Origin: Opitutia bacterium
Lineage (GTDB): Bacteria > Verrucomicrobiota > Verrucomicrobiia > Opitutales > Opitutaceae
DNA length: 64,000 nucleotides
Reading direction: 5' to 3'
NCBI GenBank assembly: GCA_016187945.1
Contig: JACPIT010000007.1
Coordinates: forward strand, 1 to 64,000
The position numbers and the translations under genes were made by a program. Positions 3,986-11,034 of the stretch are shown here, in pieces. The first letter of the stretch is position 1. Each line of letters starts with the position of its first letter. Under the pieces are notes generated by a model. It was given only the letters and a program-made list of their open reading frames with translations. It made no database searches and was not told where the DNA came from.

Positions 3986-5518
3986 ATGCGGATCTATTTC
4001 ATGGGCATTTGCGGCACGGCGATGGGCAACGCGGCGCTGCTGGCGCGCGCGAACGGGCACCAAGTGCTCGGCGCCGATCTCGGCATTTACCCGCCGATGA
4101 GCCACGTGCTCGCCCAGGCCGGAATCGAACTGCACGAGGGCTACGACGCCGCCCGGCTCGCCCGGCTCGCGCCGGATCTCGTGGTCGTCGGCAACGCCAT
4201 GAGCCGCGGCAACGTCGAGGTCGAGTGGCTGCTCGACACCCGCGCGTTTCCGTTCACGTCGCTCCCGGCGCTGCTCGCGGATTTCGTGCTGAAAGGTCGC
4301 CAGAACATCGTCATCGCCGGCACGCACGGCAAAACGACGACGACGGCGCTCACGGCGTTTTTGCTGCGCGAAAACGGCCGCGATCCGGGCTTCCTGATCG
4401 GCGGCGTGCCGCAGGATCCGCCGGTAGGCAACCACCTCGGCCGCGCGAGCGATCCGTTCGTGATCGAAGGCGACGAATACGACAGCGCGTTCTTCGACAA
4501 GCGATCGAAGTTCATTCACTACGCGCCGCACATCGCGGTGTTGAACAACCTCGAGTTCGACCACGCCGACATTTTTCGCGACCTCGACGACGTGAAGCGG
4601 ACGTTTTTCCACCTCACGCGCATCGTGCCGCGCAATGGCTGGATCGTGCTGAACGGCGACGACGCGAACCTCGCGTCGCTCGGCGCGCTCGGCTGGACGC
4701 GCGTCGTGCGGGTCGGGCTGGGGGAGAATTGCGATGTGCGCATCACAAATTTTGCCGAGACGCCCGACGGCGCGAGTTTCACGCTGAGCTGGCGCGGCGC
4801 GAAGTGGGCCGATGTCAACTGGACGCAGCCGGGACTGTATAACGCGCGCAACGCGGCGATGGCGGCGGCGGCGGTCGCGCTCGCGCTCGAAGGTGGGAGG
4901 GCGAGTCGTCCCGACGAGCCGAAAGAATCCCCGCGTGCGGGCGACGGCTCATCCGGAGGATTCGCCCTACCCGCGGAATGTCTCGCGCGCGTTAGTCTCG
5001 CGCCGCTCGCGCGCTACCGCGGCGTGAAGCGCCGGCAGGAGTTGTTGCTTAATAGCCCCAAACTCAAAGTCGTCGAGGACTTCGGGCATCACCCGACGGC
5101 GGTGGGCGAGGCGCTGACGAGTTTCCGCGCGCGCTTCCCGGACCACGTGATCCACGCGGCGTTTGAGCCGCGCAGCAACACCTCGCGGCGACGCGTGATG
5201 CTCGAGGCGTTCAAGGACGCGCTCGTGCGCGCGGACTTTGTCTACCTCGGCCCGGTGGCGCGCGCGCACCTGCTGAAGCCGGAGGAACGTTTCGATCACG
5301 ACGAGCTCATTCAATTCCTAGCGACGCGCGGCGTGCAGGGCTGCACGGCGCCGTCGAACGTGGAGCTGTTGGATAAGCTCGTCGCGGCGACGCGGGCGGA
5401 AGTGGCGAAGCCTCAGCTCGTGGTGTTCTTCACGAACGGTTCGTTCGACGGGATCATCACGGGGTTCGTGCGGCAGGCGGGAAGCGGCTCGTCGGGGACG
5501 ACTCGCCCTGCCGACTGA
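3986..5518 (+). CDS. mpl: UDP-MurNAc:L-Ala-gamma-D-Glu-meso-DAP ligase (Mpl)
   Basis: Mpl recycles murein by joining the tripeptide L-Ala-gamma-D-Glu-meso-DAP to UDP-N-acetylmuramate in the cytoplasm, using ATP. The 510-residue protein opens with the Mur ligase Rossmann motif I-Y-F-M-G-I-C-G-T-A-M-G and has the ATP loop A-G-T-H-G-K-T-T-T-T near residue 112. Further family motifs are E-G-D-E-Y-D-S-A-F-F-D-K and, near the C-terminal domain, E-D-F-G-H-H-P-T-A-V. A GGGA-type Shine-Dalgarno (AAGGGA) lies just before ATG 3986. Residues about 303-329 (G-G-R-A-S-R-P-D-E-P … G-G-F-A-L-P) are not family sequence; they are encoded by a REP palindrome inserted in frame. The final residues S-G-T-T-R-P-A-D and the stop codon also come from a REP unit. 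The enzyme core looks intact. Confidence 0.93.
   Translation: MRIYFMGICGTAMGNAALLARANGHQVLGADLGIYPPMSHVLAQAGIELHEGYDAARLARLAPDLVVVGNAMSRGNVEVEWLLDTRAFPFTSLPALLADFVLKGRQNIVIAGTHGKTTTTALTAFLLRENGRDPGFLIGGVPQDPPVGNHLGRASDPFVIEGDEYDSAFFDKRSKFIHYAPHIAVLNNLEFDHADIFRDLDDVKRTFFHLTRIVPRNGWIVLNGDDANLASLGALGWTRVVRVGLGENCDVRITNFAETPDGASFTLSWRGAKWADVNWTQPGLYNARNAAMAAAAVALALEGGRASRPDEPKESPRAGDGSSGGFALPAECLARVSLAPLARYRGVKRRQELLLNSPKLKVVEDFGHHPTAVGEALTSFRARFPDHVIHAAFEPRSNTSRRRVMLEAFKDALVRADFVYLGPVARAHLLKPEERFDHDELIQFLATRGVQGCTAPSNVELLDKLVAATRAEVAKPQLVVFFTNGSFDGIITGFVRQAGSGSSGTTRPAD
4892..4971. repeat. REP pair inserted in frame inside mpl
   Basis: The left arm (4897-4921) reads GGCGAGTCGTCCCGACGAG in its core. 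The right arm (4945-4970, CGGCTC … TTCGCCCTAC) is a partly decayed inverted copy. It is the same family as the units around the RAYT gene at 5485 and 6058. The length keeps the mpl frame open, adding about 27 residues ahead of the conserved Y-R-G-V-K-R-R-Q-E-L segment. Confidence 0.85.
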
Positions 5519-5562
5519 GTTGCGCGGCGAAAAATGGTAGGGCGAGTCGTCCCGACGAGCCG
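5485..5562. repeat. REP/BIME unit upstream of the RAYT gene
   Basis: This unit of about 78 bp consists of two inverted REP arms (GGCTCGTCGGGGACGACTCG and GGCGAGTCGTCCCGACGAGC). They are separated by a spacer that contains GACTGAGTTGCGCGGCG and AAAAATGG. It is almost identical to 6058-6136. The TGA in the spacer (5516-5518) is the mpl stop codon, and the ATGG at 5534 is an in-frame but unlikely start for the transposase. Confidence 0.9.
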
Positions 5563-5563
5563 T

Positions 5564-5640
5564 CGCACGATGAACCACGAACTCCCGCAGCGCCGCACGA
5601 TGAAAGCCGAACTCCCGCAACGCCGCACGCTGCATCACGC
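5564..5640. repeat. 30-bp tandem repeat at the 5' end of the RAYT gene
   Basis: Units at 5564-5593 and 5594-5623 are nearly identical, with a third partial unit following. Each begins CGCACGATGA and ends CTCCCGCARCGC. They encode R-T-M-N-H-E-L-P-Q-R and R-T-M-K-A-E-L-P-Q-R. Each of the first two units offers an ATG in the RAYT frame. Confidence 0.85.
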
Positions 5641-6091
5641 GCCACCGACGTGGGTGGCAAACGGTTCGCTGTTCTTCGTCACGATTTGCGCGGAGACGCG
5701 CGGAGTGAATTCACTTTGCACCGATCCGACCGGACCGAGGCTTCTCGATTCGGCTCGCGACTATCAGGAGCGCCAGACGTGGTGGCTGAAGTTGTTTCTG
5801 CTGATGCCGGATCACTTGCACATGTTGGTGGGATTTCCCGCCGACCGTGCGATGGCGACCGTGATACGCGCATGGAAGTCCTACCAAACGCGGGCGCTCG
5901 GCGTGCGTTGGCAATCCGGCTTCTTCGATCATCGCTTGCGGTCGGATGAGTCGGAAGACGCGAAAACGGAATATATTCGCATGAATCCGGTGCGGGCGGG
6001 ATTGGTGGCGCGGACGGAGGACTGGCGATTTGTCTGGCCGGTGCCGCGCGCGGGCGACGGCTCGTCGGGGACGACTCGCCCTACCGACTGA
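5570..6091 (+). CDS. REP-associated tyrosine transposase (RAYT)
   Basis: RAYTs are single-copy Y1 HUH transposases related to IS200/IS605 TnpA that are thought to mobilise REP palindromes. Taking ATG 5570, the protein has 173 residues. F-F-V-T-I-C forms the first strand, and L-M-P-D-H-L-H-M-L-V carries the HxH metal pair (His82, His84). F-F-D-H-R-L-R-S-D-E-S and E-Y-I-R-M-N-P-V-R-A-G-L-V follow, with Tyr135 the likely nucleophile. All core motifs are intact. The last 14 residues (R-A-G-D-G-S-S-G-T-T-R-P-T-D) and the stop are encoded by the downstream REP unit. The 5' end is a 30-bp tandem repeat, so ATG 5570 or 5600 could be used. REP units lie on both sides and in the adjacent mpl, as expected for a functional RAYT-REP pair. 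Confidence 0.9.
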   Translation: MNHELPQRRTMKAELPQRRTLHHAPPTWVANGSLFFVTICAETRGVNSLCTDPTGPRLLDSARDYQERQTWWLKLFLLMPDHLHMLVGFPADRAMATVIRAWKSYQTRALGVRWQSGFFDHRLRSDESEDAKTEYIRMNPVRAGLVARTEDWRFVWPVPRAGDGSSGTTRPTD

Positions 6092-6137
6092 GTTGCGCGG
6101 CGAAAAATGGTAGGGCGAGTCGTCCCGACGAGCCGCC
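6058..6137. repeat. REP/BIME unit downstream of the RAYT gene
   Basis: This is a near-identical copy of 5485-5562, with the same arms and the same GACTGAGTTGCGCGGCG spacer. Its TGA (6089-6091) ends the RAYT gene, exactly as the upstream copy ends mpl. It lies only about 15 bases beyond the 3' end of rimO on the other strand and may also act as a transcript end for both genes. Confidence 0.9.
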
Positions 6138-6151
6138 CCGCGCGGCCCGTT

Positions 6152-9326: not shown

Positions 9327-9755
9327 ATGCGCTATCTCGGCATCGACTACGGCGCGAAACGGATCGGACTCGCCCACGGTGACGAGATCGGCGTTGCGAC
9401 GCCGTTGCCAGCCGTGATCGAAGCGGCGCCGGAGGCGCGCTGGGCGAAATTCGGCGAGGTCGTCCGCGCGCGCCGCATCACCGATCTCGTGGTCGGCTAT
9501 CCCTACAACATGGACGGCTCGGTCGGCTTCAAAGCGAAGGAAGTCGACGCGTTCGTGGCGGAGCTGAAGATCCGCTTCGGCTTGCCGGTGCACCTCGTCG
9601 ACGAGACGCTGACGAGTTACGCCGCCGAATCGTCGATCAAAAAGAAGGACCGTCGCGGCGTGCGCGACAGCGGCCTGATCGACTCGCGCGCCGCGACGAT
9701 CATTTTGCAGGATTTCCTCGATCAGCGAAACCCGCCAGTGGCGCCGCCGGAGTAG
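9327..9755 (+). CDS. ruvX: Putative pre-16S rRNA nuclease / Holliday junction resolvase RuvX (YqgF)
   Basis: YqgF/RuvX has an RNase H-like fold and matures the 5' end of 16S rRNA in E. coli; a resolvase role was proposed from structure. The 142-residue protein has the first acidic strand L-G-I-D-Y-G-A-K-R-I-G-L-A. It also shows V-V-G-Y-P-Y-N-M-D-G-S, V-D-E-T-L-T-S (second acidic residue) and the closing D-S-R-A-A-T-I-I-L-Q-D-F-L helix. All are in family positions and the length is typical. It lies directly behind manC. Confidence 0.92.
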   Translation: MRYLGIDYGAKRIGLAHGDEIGVATPLPAVIEAAPEARWAKFGEVVRARRITDLVVGYPYNMDGSVGFKAKEVDAFVAELKIRFGLPVHLVDETLTSYAAESSIKKKDRRGVRDSGLIDSRAATIILQDFLDQRNPPVAPPE

Positions 9756-9781
9756 CTGCCGCGGCGGTTTCCGACTTCCGT

Positions 9782-9866
9782 GTTTTCTGTGGTTTCCACC
9801 GCGCTGCGCTTCTGACAGAGGTGCTCTGCACGGGCCACAACCACAGAAAACTCAGAATACACAGAA
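9782..9866. repeat. Left inverted repeat of the GxxExxY cassette
   Basis: Positions 9839-9866 (AACCACAGAAAACTCAGAAT then ACACAGAA) are the exact inverse complement of 10257-10284. An extra 13-bp inverted copy of the outer part, GTTTTCTGTGGTT, lies at 9782-9794 and could fold with 9839-9851. Confidence 0.9.
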
Positions 9867-9878
9867 AGGGTTACGGCC

Positions 9879-10256
9879 ATGAAGGAGTTCATTCACGGTG
9901 AGGAAACGCACGCGTTGCTCGGCGCATGCTTCGAGGTCTACAAGGAGAAGGGATGCGGGTTCCTGGAGGCGGTTTTTCAGGAGTGTCTTGAGTTCGAGCT
10001 GGCAGATCGCGGCATTCCGCACGTTGTCCAGCCGCGCTTGAAGCTGTCTTACAAAGGCCGTGAGTTGAAGCAGACCTATCAACCGGATTTTTTCTGCTTC
10101 GATAAGGTGCTGCTCGAGATCAAGGCGGTCTCCGGATTGACCGACGAGCATCGAACGCAAGTTCACAATTATCTCAAGGCAACCGGACTTCGTGTCGGAC
10201 TCCTGGTGAATTTCGGCCATTATCCTCTCGTCGAACACGAGAGAATCGTGCGCTGA
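9879..10256 (+). CDS. GxxExxY family protein (PD-(D/E)XK-like)
   Basis: The family is named for a G-x-x-E-x-x-Y motif in an N-terminal helix; here it reads G-F-L-E-A-V-F, with Phe in place of Tyr. The 125-residue protein also has R-L-K-L-S-Y-K-G, the Y-Q-P-D-F-F-C-F strand, L-L-E-I-K-A-V (an E-x-K of nuclease-like type) and the closing G-L-L-V-N-F-G. No biochemical role is established for the family; a nuclease-like fold is inferred from the D…ExK pattern. The gene is AT-richer than its neighbours and is enclosed by a perfect 28-bp inverted repeat, which suggests a mobile or transferred cassette inserted directly before truA. Confidence 0.88.
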   Translation: MKEFIHGEETHALLGACFEVYKEKGCGFLEAVFQECLEFELADRGIPHVVQPRLKLSYKGRELKQTYQPDFFCFDKVLLEIKAVSGLTDEHRTQVHNYLKATGLRVGLLVNFGHYPLVEHERIVR

Positions 10257-10284
10257 TTCTGTGTATTCTGAGTTTTCTGTGGTT
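10257..10284. repeat. Right inverted repeat of the GxxExxY cassette
   Basis: TTCTGTGTATTCTGAGTTTT followed by CTGTGGTT, the exact inverse complement of 9839-9866. It begins one base after the GxxExxY stop codon. It contains the only upstream start codons available for truA (GTG 10261 and GTG 10279). Confidence 0.9.
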
Positions 10285-11034
10285 ACCCGTCCCTTATCTC
10301 TTCCGCGCTGGAAATGCATCGTCGCCTACGATGGCGGCGCGTTCGACGGGTGGCAGAGCCAGGAGAGCGGCAATACGATCCAGGATGTGCTCGAGCGGCG
10401 GCTCGCGGCGATTTTCAAGACGTCCCTCCGCCTGCACGGCAGCGGACGCACCGACGCCGGCGTGCACGCGCTCGGGCAGGTGTTGCACTTCGACGCGGCG
10501 TGGTCGCACGGCGCCGAGAAGCTCCGACTCGCTCTGCGAGCGACACTGCCGAAGAGTATCCAGATCGTGAGCGTGCGCCGCGTGCCGGCGAGTTTTCACG
10601 CGCGTTTTTCGGCGAAGGGAAAAGTCTACCGCTATCACGTGTTTCTCGGCGAAGCGGATCCGTTTCACACCGCGTATCGCTGGTCGTTCGACCGTCCGCT
10701 CGATTTCGCCGCGATGGAGCGCGCGGCGAAGTTGCTGCGCGGCAAGCAGGACTTCTGGGCCTTTTCCGGCGAGAACGACCGCACCTACGAGACCACCGTG
10801 CGCGATCTCCGTCGGCTCGAGATCCGGCGCCGCGGCCGCGAGCTGACGTTCACTTTCGAGGCGGACGGGTTCCTCTACAAGATGGTGCGCAGCCTCACGG
10901 GTGCGCTGATGAACGTCGGCATCGGCAAACTCACCCCCGAGGACATTGCGGAGCTCATCCGGACGCGTCGGCGCATTCCGCACGTCGTGACGGCCCCACC
11001 GCAGGGGCTGTTTCTGGTGAAGGTGAGATATTGA
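10261..11034 (+). CDS. truA: tRNA pseudouridine(38-40) synthase TruA
   Basis: TruA converts uridines 38-40 of the anticodon arm to pseudouridine. The protein has I-V-A-Y-D-G-G-A-F-D-G-W-Q-S-Q at the start and the catalytic G-S-G-R-T-D-A-G-V-H-A-L-G-Q (the Asp nucleophile). G-K-V-Y-R-Y-H and A-D-G-F-L-Y-K-M-V-R lie in the second half. The core is intact and of usual length, 257 residues from GTG 10261. The start is uncertain. GTG 10261 and GTG 10279 both lie inside the inverted repeat that flanks the GxxExxY gene, and no ATG fits, so the insertion seems to have replaced the native start region. Confidence 0.9.
   Translation: MYSEFSVVTRPLSLPRWKCIVAYDGGAFDGWQSQESGNTIQDVLERRLAAIFKTSLRLHGSGRTDAGVHALGQVLHFDAAWSHGAEKLRLALRATLPKSIQIVSVRRVPASFHARFSAKGKVYRYHVFLGEADPFHTAYRWSFDRPLDFAAMERAAKLLRGKQDFWAFSGENDRTYETTVRDLRRLEIRRRGRELTFTFEADGFLYKMVRSLTGALMNVGIGKLTPEDIAELIRTRRRIPHVVTAPPQGLFLVKVRY

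Follow-up and report, generated by a model that had tools for sequence, protein, structure and literature searches.

The GxxExxY gene analyzed here is paired with an inverted repeat built of units of about nine nucleotides, and this pairing of gene and repeat is established by their association, by the covariation of repeat and protein, by specificity among the gene families tested, by a population of gene-less repeats, and by gain and loss of the element. The explanation that we favor, at somewhat better than even chances, is that the GxxExxY protein and its 28-bp nonamer arm form a cognate nuclease–repeat pair working like RAYT/REPIN, with a Cas4-like enzyme replacing the tyrosine transposase. 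The binding, the cutting, and the movement or spreading of the arms by the GxxExxY protein are the parts of this explanation that we infer from the patterns described below.

The window (the whole stretch of 64,000 nucleotides of Opitutia bacterium DNA that was analyzed) carries the element between ruvX and a truA-type gene, and the locus comprises the following features:

9327..9755, plus strand: ruvX, the upstream neighbor (context)
9776..9797, plus strand: third, partial arm, upstream, in the orientation opposite to the left arm
9839..9866, minus strand: 28-bp left arm made up of three units of about 9 nt (AACCACAGA AAACTCAGA ATACACAGAA)
9879..10256, plus strand: GxxExxY gene, 125 aa, PD-(D/E)XK nuclease family (TIGR04256 and PF13366 matches; D70, E80, and K82 present)
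10257..10284, plus strand: right arm, exact reverse complement of the left arm
10288..11034, plus strand: tRNA pseudouridine synthase (truA-type) region, the downstream neighbor (context; end at 11034, start approximate)

The exact inverse complementarity of 9839-9866 and 10257-10284 around the gene, proposed by the sequence-only reading, was confirmed as a perfect 28-bp inverted repeat with 100% complementarity and 390 nt between the arms. The left arm, assigned to the minus strand on which its TTCTGTG reading falls, ends 12 nt before the GxxExxY ATG, and the first base of the right arm is the base right after the stop codon. The third partial copy of that reading does exist and pairs with the left arm (9776-9794 is complementary to 9839-9857 over 19 nt at 89%), its start being 9776 and not 9782, a few bases off. 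Allowing up to two mismatches, the pattern TTCTGTGNNTTCTGNG occurs five times in the window, every time within the GxxExxY locus, and five occurrences were reached by 0 of 100 dinucleotide shuffles of the window. The inverted-repeat score of this locus is 28, and a score of 18 was reached by 0 of 1747 shifted control windows from the related loci; the shuffles and the shifted windows together rule out a chance origin of the repeat.

Profile comparison bore out the earlier description of the gene as nuclease-like, the window protein scoring 127.4 bits against TIGR04256 (cut-off 35) and 131.1 bits against PF13366 (PDDEXK_3; cut-off 22), both of the PD-(D/E)XK family; a Y1_Tnp (HuH tyrosine) transposase domain is absent, PF13366 being the only match in that domain search. 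The residues presumed to be catalytic hardly vary: D70, E80, and K82 occur in 110, 109, and 110 of 111 GxxExxY proteins, respectively, with all three present in the window protein, and, together with Q94, E30, E40, and Y58, each is kept in 109 to 111 of the 111. Cysteines 17, 26, 36, and 73, all found in the window protein, have family frequencies of 79, 62, 93, and 79 of 111. In the structure model of the window protein (pLDDT 93.1, pTM 0.86), the nearest solved fold was Cas4 SSO0001 (4ic1; Foldseek E 1.7e-4, TMq 0.61), with a VIA-align Z of 10.3 and an rmsd of 5.0 over 101 residues, followed by many PD-(D/E)XK enzymes such as lambda-type exonucleases, Holliday-junction resolvases, and restriction enzymes, all with Z of at most 7.8; a PDB search by sequence returned two matches for the window protein at E about 0.3, which are not convincing. 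The modeled fold suggests a minimal Cas4-like PD-(D/E)XK enzyme, a likeness of fold that does not prove function, and the protein differs from Cas4 in its length of only 125 aa; its four cysteines, candidate counterparts of the cluster cysteines of Cas4, are common but not universal in the family, and Cas1 and Cas2 are not beside the GxxExxY gene in the window. Two other roles were considered for the gene and rejected, namely defense gene (0 PADLOC families at E <= 0.01 for the window protein, and one weak PHROGs family of unknown function at E 0.00096) and phage or plasmid cargo (0 matches in 50,697 phage records and 8 in 72,556 plasmid records at E 1e-5). Among the best 80 of 188 protein relatives, the closest are mostly from Opitutaceae and other Verrucomicrobia assemblies, and the window's own genome (G000, 5.47 Mb) encodes four distinct GxxExxY genes. 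One related copy (L037) is broken by an internal stop, and another, in a record titled as a Klebsiella pneumoniae MAG (L091), has a PVC-type protein and PVC-type arms, so that this label is probably wrong.

The check for repeats around other GxxExxY genes, as the sequence-only reading had suggested, was positive. The 114 loci collected comprise the best 80 of 188 relatives, the 4 genes of the own genome, and a further 30 found in 100 genomes belonging to the same family; 111 were scored, leaving out one with a short flank (L063) and two at contig ends (L164 and L166). The protein alignment (A1) combined the window protein with 69 of the best 80 relatives (without L037, L091, L100-L103, and L106-L110). 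Scoring the best ungapped inverted match between the 250 nt upstream and the 250 nt downstream of the gene, with same-shaped windows shifted along the same loci as a control (n=1747), we found an inverted repeat of at least 14 at 84 of 111 loci versus 6 of 1747 shifted windows, and of at least 18 at 62 of 111 versus 0 of 1747, while direct repeats of at least 14 were seen at 26 loci versus 11 shifted windows. The remaining 27 of 111 loci show no inverted repeat of at least 14, and two of the four own-genome genes fall below that score. The arms face inward in 77 of the 84 armed loci, and their type varies by locus (CACGAAA, CACGGAA, CACAGAA, CGCGAAA, CGCGAAT, CACGGAT, CACGGAG, and others), CTGTGTATTCTG being merely one among many; the median arm match score was 20 within a locus versus 9 between loci (83 loci, without L063). 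Of the 76 arms of at least 20 nt, 55 had their best self-repeat lag at 9 nt and 17 at 10 nt. At one locus (L112), a palindrome of about 77 bp lies on each side of the gene as two direct copies 99-100% identical, which is a recent duplication; near-identical copies in that genome are limited to these two gene-flanking ones (100 and 99%), with one further copy at 75%.

A strict three-unit test (again without L063) detected inward nonamer pairs at 38 of 79 and 17 of 32 GxxExxY loci (55 of 111 in total) but at none of 28 four-helix-bundle (TIGR02436) loci, none of 24 Y1_Tnp loci, and none of 1697 shifted windows. These comparison sets retained 28 of 30 four-helix-bundle loci (without L253 and L262) and 24 of 30 Y1_Tnp loci, the latter being a rough control because gene bounds are wrong at the loci cut by contig ends, which number at least 4 of the 24. 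The four-helix-bundle genes resemble the GxxExxY genes in that inverted arms of short tandem units surround a small gene, with an inverted repeat of at least 14 at 18 of 28 loci (L245-L274, without L253 and L262) versus 0 of 224 shifted windows; they differ in their unrelated protein, in their 7-nt units (the best lag was 7 nt in 16 of 16 arms scored), and in lacking strict nonamer arms. TIGR02436 genes and arms of 7-nt units appear as a parallel pairing of gene and repeat.

The letters of the arms track the protein sequence, across phyla as well. In the 84 armed loci, the Mantel correlation between arm similarity and protein identity was rho 0.593, with 0 of 2000 permutations as high; this test excludes the 27 loci without an inverted repeat of at least 14. 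Shuffling the arms within phyla only again gave 0 of 2000, cross-phylum pairs alone gave rho 0.55 (0 of 2000), and control for GC gave 0.594 (0 of 1000), while the closer loci alone (62 of the best 80 relatives) gave a weaker rho of 0.23 (0 of 2000). All of these figures are inflated by relatedness because the permutations ignore the tree, the cross-phylum test, with phylum labels taken from record titles, being the best guard here. Mutual information between residues and arm type was diffuse, a pattern for which ancestry could account. GxxExxY genes also recur in many species in the gap between an ABC ATPase gene and the same ABC permease gene (L035, L038, L039, L041, L053, L062, L072, L100, and L108 by start motif; L400, L402, and L403 by eye), and there the arms are CACGAAA in some species and CACGGAA in others, with both sides switched together (arm types partly by eye). 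Per genome, the net count of motifs had a median of 9 with a GxxExxY gene (n 85) versus 1 without (n 15; Mann-Whitney p 7e-5), and over 100 genomes, which are non-independent, it correlated with GxxExxY at rho 0.41 but about equally with four-helix-bundle genes, at rho 0.39.

This covariation bears on the possibility that the palindromes are sites of a nucleoid or global regulator (IHF/HU-like) which the GxxExxY gene merely adjoins. Such a role was proposed for Geobacter metallireducens, whose genome paper predicts that its paired ‘class 2’ tandem-repeat sites are targets of global regulators and suggests recognition by IHF/HU (PMC2700814, 2009). As given in the section of that paper on these sites, each comprises three tandem copies of TCTCCGTS[Y], a consensus that looks like the CACGGAG arm type; the sites are paired across opposite strands, the distance between them varies, and they are reported there without a named nuclease gene (PMC2700814). 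A general regulator, however, would need no different site for the arms of each paralog, and neither the strict inward pairs, frequent at GxxExxY loci and absent from the shifted windows, nor arms that covary with the GxxExxY protein are what it predicts; we regard this possibility as highly improbable.

Most of the armed elements found in the own genome are gene-less. The strict triple pattern, which misses G-tailed and other arm types, gave 87 matches there versus 5 for the reversed pattern, and in the stretches around the matches we counted 43 gene-less left–right arm pairs, whose spacers measure 5 to 208 nt, using an arm matrix trained on gene-flanking arms. Spacers mostly look unrelated between these elements, with the exception of the CACGGAT element, of which eight aligned copies share an interior and lie, with different flanks, inside a unit of about 175 bp with its own terminal repeats; this MITE-like unit (L115, L117, L130, L139, L191, L192, L209, and L213) ends near TCCTAAAATC / GAATTTAGGA. 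In another genome (G065), the arms are 92% identical in both the 19 CACGGAA and the 11 CACGAAA elements, versus 52% and 49% for the respective spacers (44% and 42% when shuffled), although 12 of 171 CACGGAA spacer pairs are still at least 75% identical. Pooled, the CACGGAA arms of G065 hold at least 1.2 bits at 27 of 28 positions and 0.5 at one, with at most 0.7 outside, which delimits a sharply bounded block of 28 bp, equal in length to the window repeat. Some populations are orphans: about 16 CACGAAA-like gene-less pairs exist in the own genome, where 0 of 4 GxxExxY genes have such arms, and 11 in G065, where such arms flank 0 of the 5 genes read.

The MITE-borne subset raises the alternative that a different transposase, of RAYT or DDE type, mobilizes the palindromes as MITE-like elements, with the GxxExxY gene as a captured passenger. 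The eight CACGGAT copies fit this account, as does the presence of Y1_Tnp genes in 89 of 100 family genomes, yet a passenger is not expected to covary with the arms as observed, strict nonamer arms are absent from the 24 Y1_Tnp loci of the rough control, and spacers mostly differ between elements; we judge it unlikely. A distinctly unlikely account, in our estimate, is that the protein acts as an RNase or autoregulator on transcribed hairpins and the palindromes as signals of operon processing, decay, or attenuation. Some elements do lie in operon-like gaps (gap-pgk; ABC ATPase-permease), and the single-strand folding of the tested elements is strong (z -7.8 and -11.5). Against it, the arm pairs of the own genome are no more alike within an element than between elements of the same type, and because of this lack of excess the pairing of the hairpin itself appears to be under no extra constraint; the fold neighbors are mostly DNA enzymes, though tRNA splicing endonucleases also appear; and 0 Rfam families reached the gathering threshold in 7 loci, on which grounds an RNA family was rejected.

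Relatives were also inspected for empty sites, and these were found. The ruvX-truA site was compared in 13 genomes of the genus, with the left arms identified by matrix and the rest by eye: two hold an armed GxxExxY gene (G000 and G105), two a gene-less CACGGAT palindrome (G096 and G101; right arms partly by eye), five a short plain spacer (G100, G103, G104, G106, and G107), one another filler (G102), and three a different ORF (G040, G074, and G108; L217, L216, and L226), which by eye only is HAD-phosphatase-like. The GxxExxY pair of G000 and G105 shares 78% of amino acids and 70% of bases, dS being undefined. At five gene-less sites of the own genome, whose states, like those of ruvX-truA, were judged partly by eye, the element at gap-pgk was common to 1 of 9 aligned relatives, and the other four were absent in 3 of 3, 3 of 3, 2 of 2, and 3 of 3 relatives; at one of these four, a congener (L293) seems by eye to have a palindrome of a different, CACTAAT-like type. 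The empty sites of both kinds are too diverged for base-level junctions, and target-site duplication is neither claimed nor excluded.

The mobile cassette initially proposed is thus supported in part, through the flanking inverted repeats of the family and the presence and absence at ruvX-truA among the 13 congeners, while movement or target-site duplication was not seen. Because there are many arm types, because the elements are mostly gene-less, and because the armed gene recurs at one ABC permease site in many species, we read the arms more as recognition sites belonging to a resident population of repeats than as the mere ends of a cassette that roams. A related proposal treats the armed gene as a selfish cassette of the homing type that copies itself into gene-less arm palindromes; it draws on the occurrence of an armed gene and a gene-less palindrome at the same ruvX-truA site in different congeners, with the gene taking the place of the spacer. 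The gene-less palindromes at this site belong, however, to another arm type, and the four genes of the own genome are distinct from one another despite dozens of available palindromes, which leaves homing very unlikely.

Action of the GxxExxY protein on the arms is the simplest account because the gene is bracketed by its own arm type, the arms covary with it, and uniform arms surround drifting spacers. Under the nuclease–repeat pairing, the protein would recognize the nonamer arms, whether these are duplex, extruded as a cruciform, or folded into a single-stranded hairpin, and would cut there. Paired arms would afterwards be spread, restored, or pruned by repair or by copying of a strand; the arms would thereby stay uniform while the spacers drift, and a gene copy would be the coding member of the arm population. 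Expression of the gene probably often comes from read-through from its neighbors, both of which were oriented like the gene at 33 of the 62 loci scored (by crude ORF calls). Several observations stand against this account, namely the orphan CACGAAA populations, the 27 of 111 genes (two of the four own-genome genes among those scoring below 14) that lack a clear inverted repeat, the absence of a within-element excess, the MITE-borne subset, the motif counts that follow four-helix-bundle genes about equally, and the weaker Mantel rho of the closer loci.

The closest parallels are REPIN/RAYT systems (REPtrons) and TIRtrons, in which, according to the portions of the literature drawn on here, inverted arms likewise enclose a small enzyme gene, inverted doublets without a gene (43 here) are scattered around the genome, arms are conserved and spacers less so, and distinct gene copies have their own arm type, with arms coevolving with the enzyme (PMC3116915, PMC3733652, PMC8266576). 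The systems differ in their enzymes, a PD-(D/E)XK protein here versus a Y1/HuH transposase there, and in their arms, which here are three units of about 9 nt without a GTAG or CGTC tag; the pertinent part of PMC3733652 describes RAYT-associated repeats as carrying GTAG at one end, and this tag is absent from the window arms and the G065 consensus, which begin AACC or GCCC. The GxxExxY pairing, moreover, is known here from sequence comparison. The GxxExxY name occurs in PMC8934634 and PMC12085832; the six arm strings had no match in PMC full text, and no paper joining the family to repeats was found in PMC, outside whose scope lie most subscription papers and preprints. The frequent arms, their covariation with the protein, and the gene-less population together suggest a partnership of nuclease and repeat that has gone unrecognized.

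More tentatively, at somewhat less than even chances, GxxExxY proteins may represent a second, non-transposase class of ‘repeat keepers’, PD-(D/E)XK nucleases that read tandem nonamers by a diversifying specificity surface and create and maintain populations of palindromes in many phyla, with TIGR02436 and its heptamer arms as a third, independent class. If this is true, a cognate small protein would belong to each of many bacterial palindromes of short units that lack an explanation. The proposed pairing offers a testable role for a widespread family whose only label is the name of its motif, and a candidate partner protein for intergenic palindromes noticed yet unexplained. If the pairing is functional, REPtron-like systems would have arisen in bacteria from enzymes unrelated to each other, and the arm–protein pairs found in nature would offer a ready data set on how the DNA specificity of a tiny nuclease changes.

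The window holds a further element of related interest. A Y1_Tnp (RAYT-like) gene at 5534-6088 lies inside 102-nt direct repeats (90%) holding GGGACGACTCGCCCTACC palindromes (window 5468-6142), and this region appears to be a classical REPtron, at a distance of about 4 kb from the GxxExxY gene and its arms.
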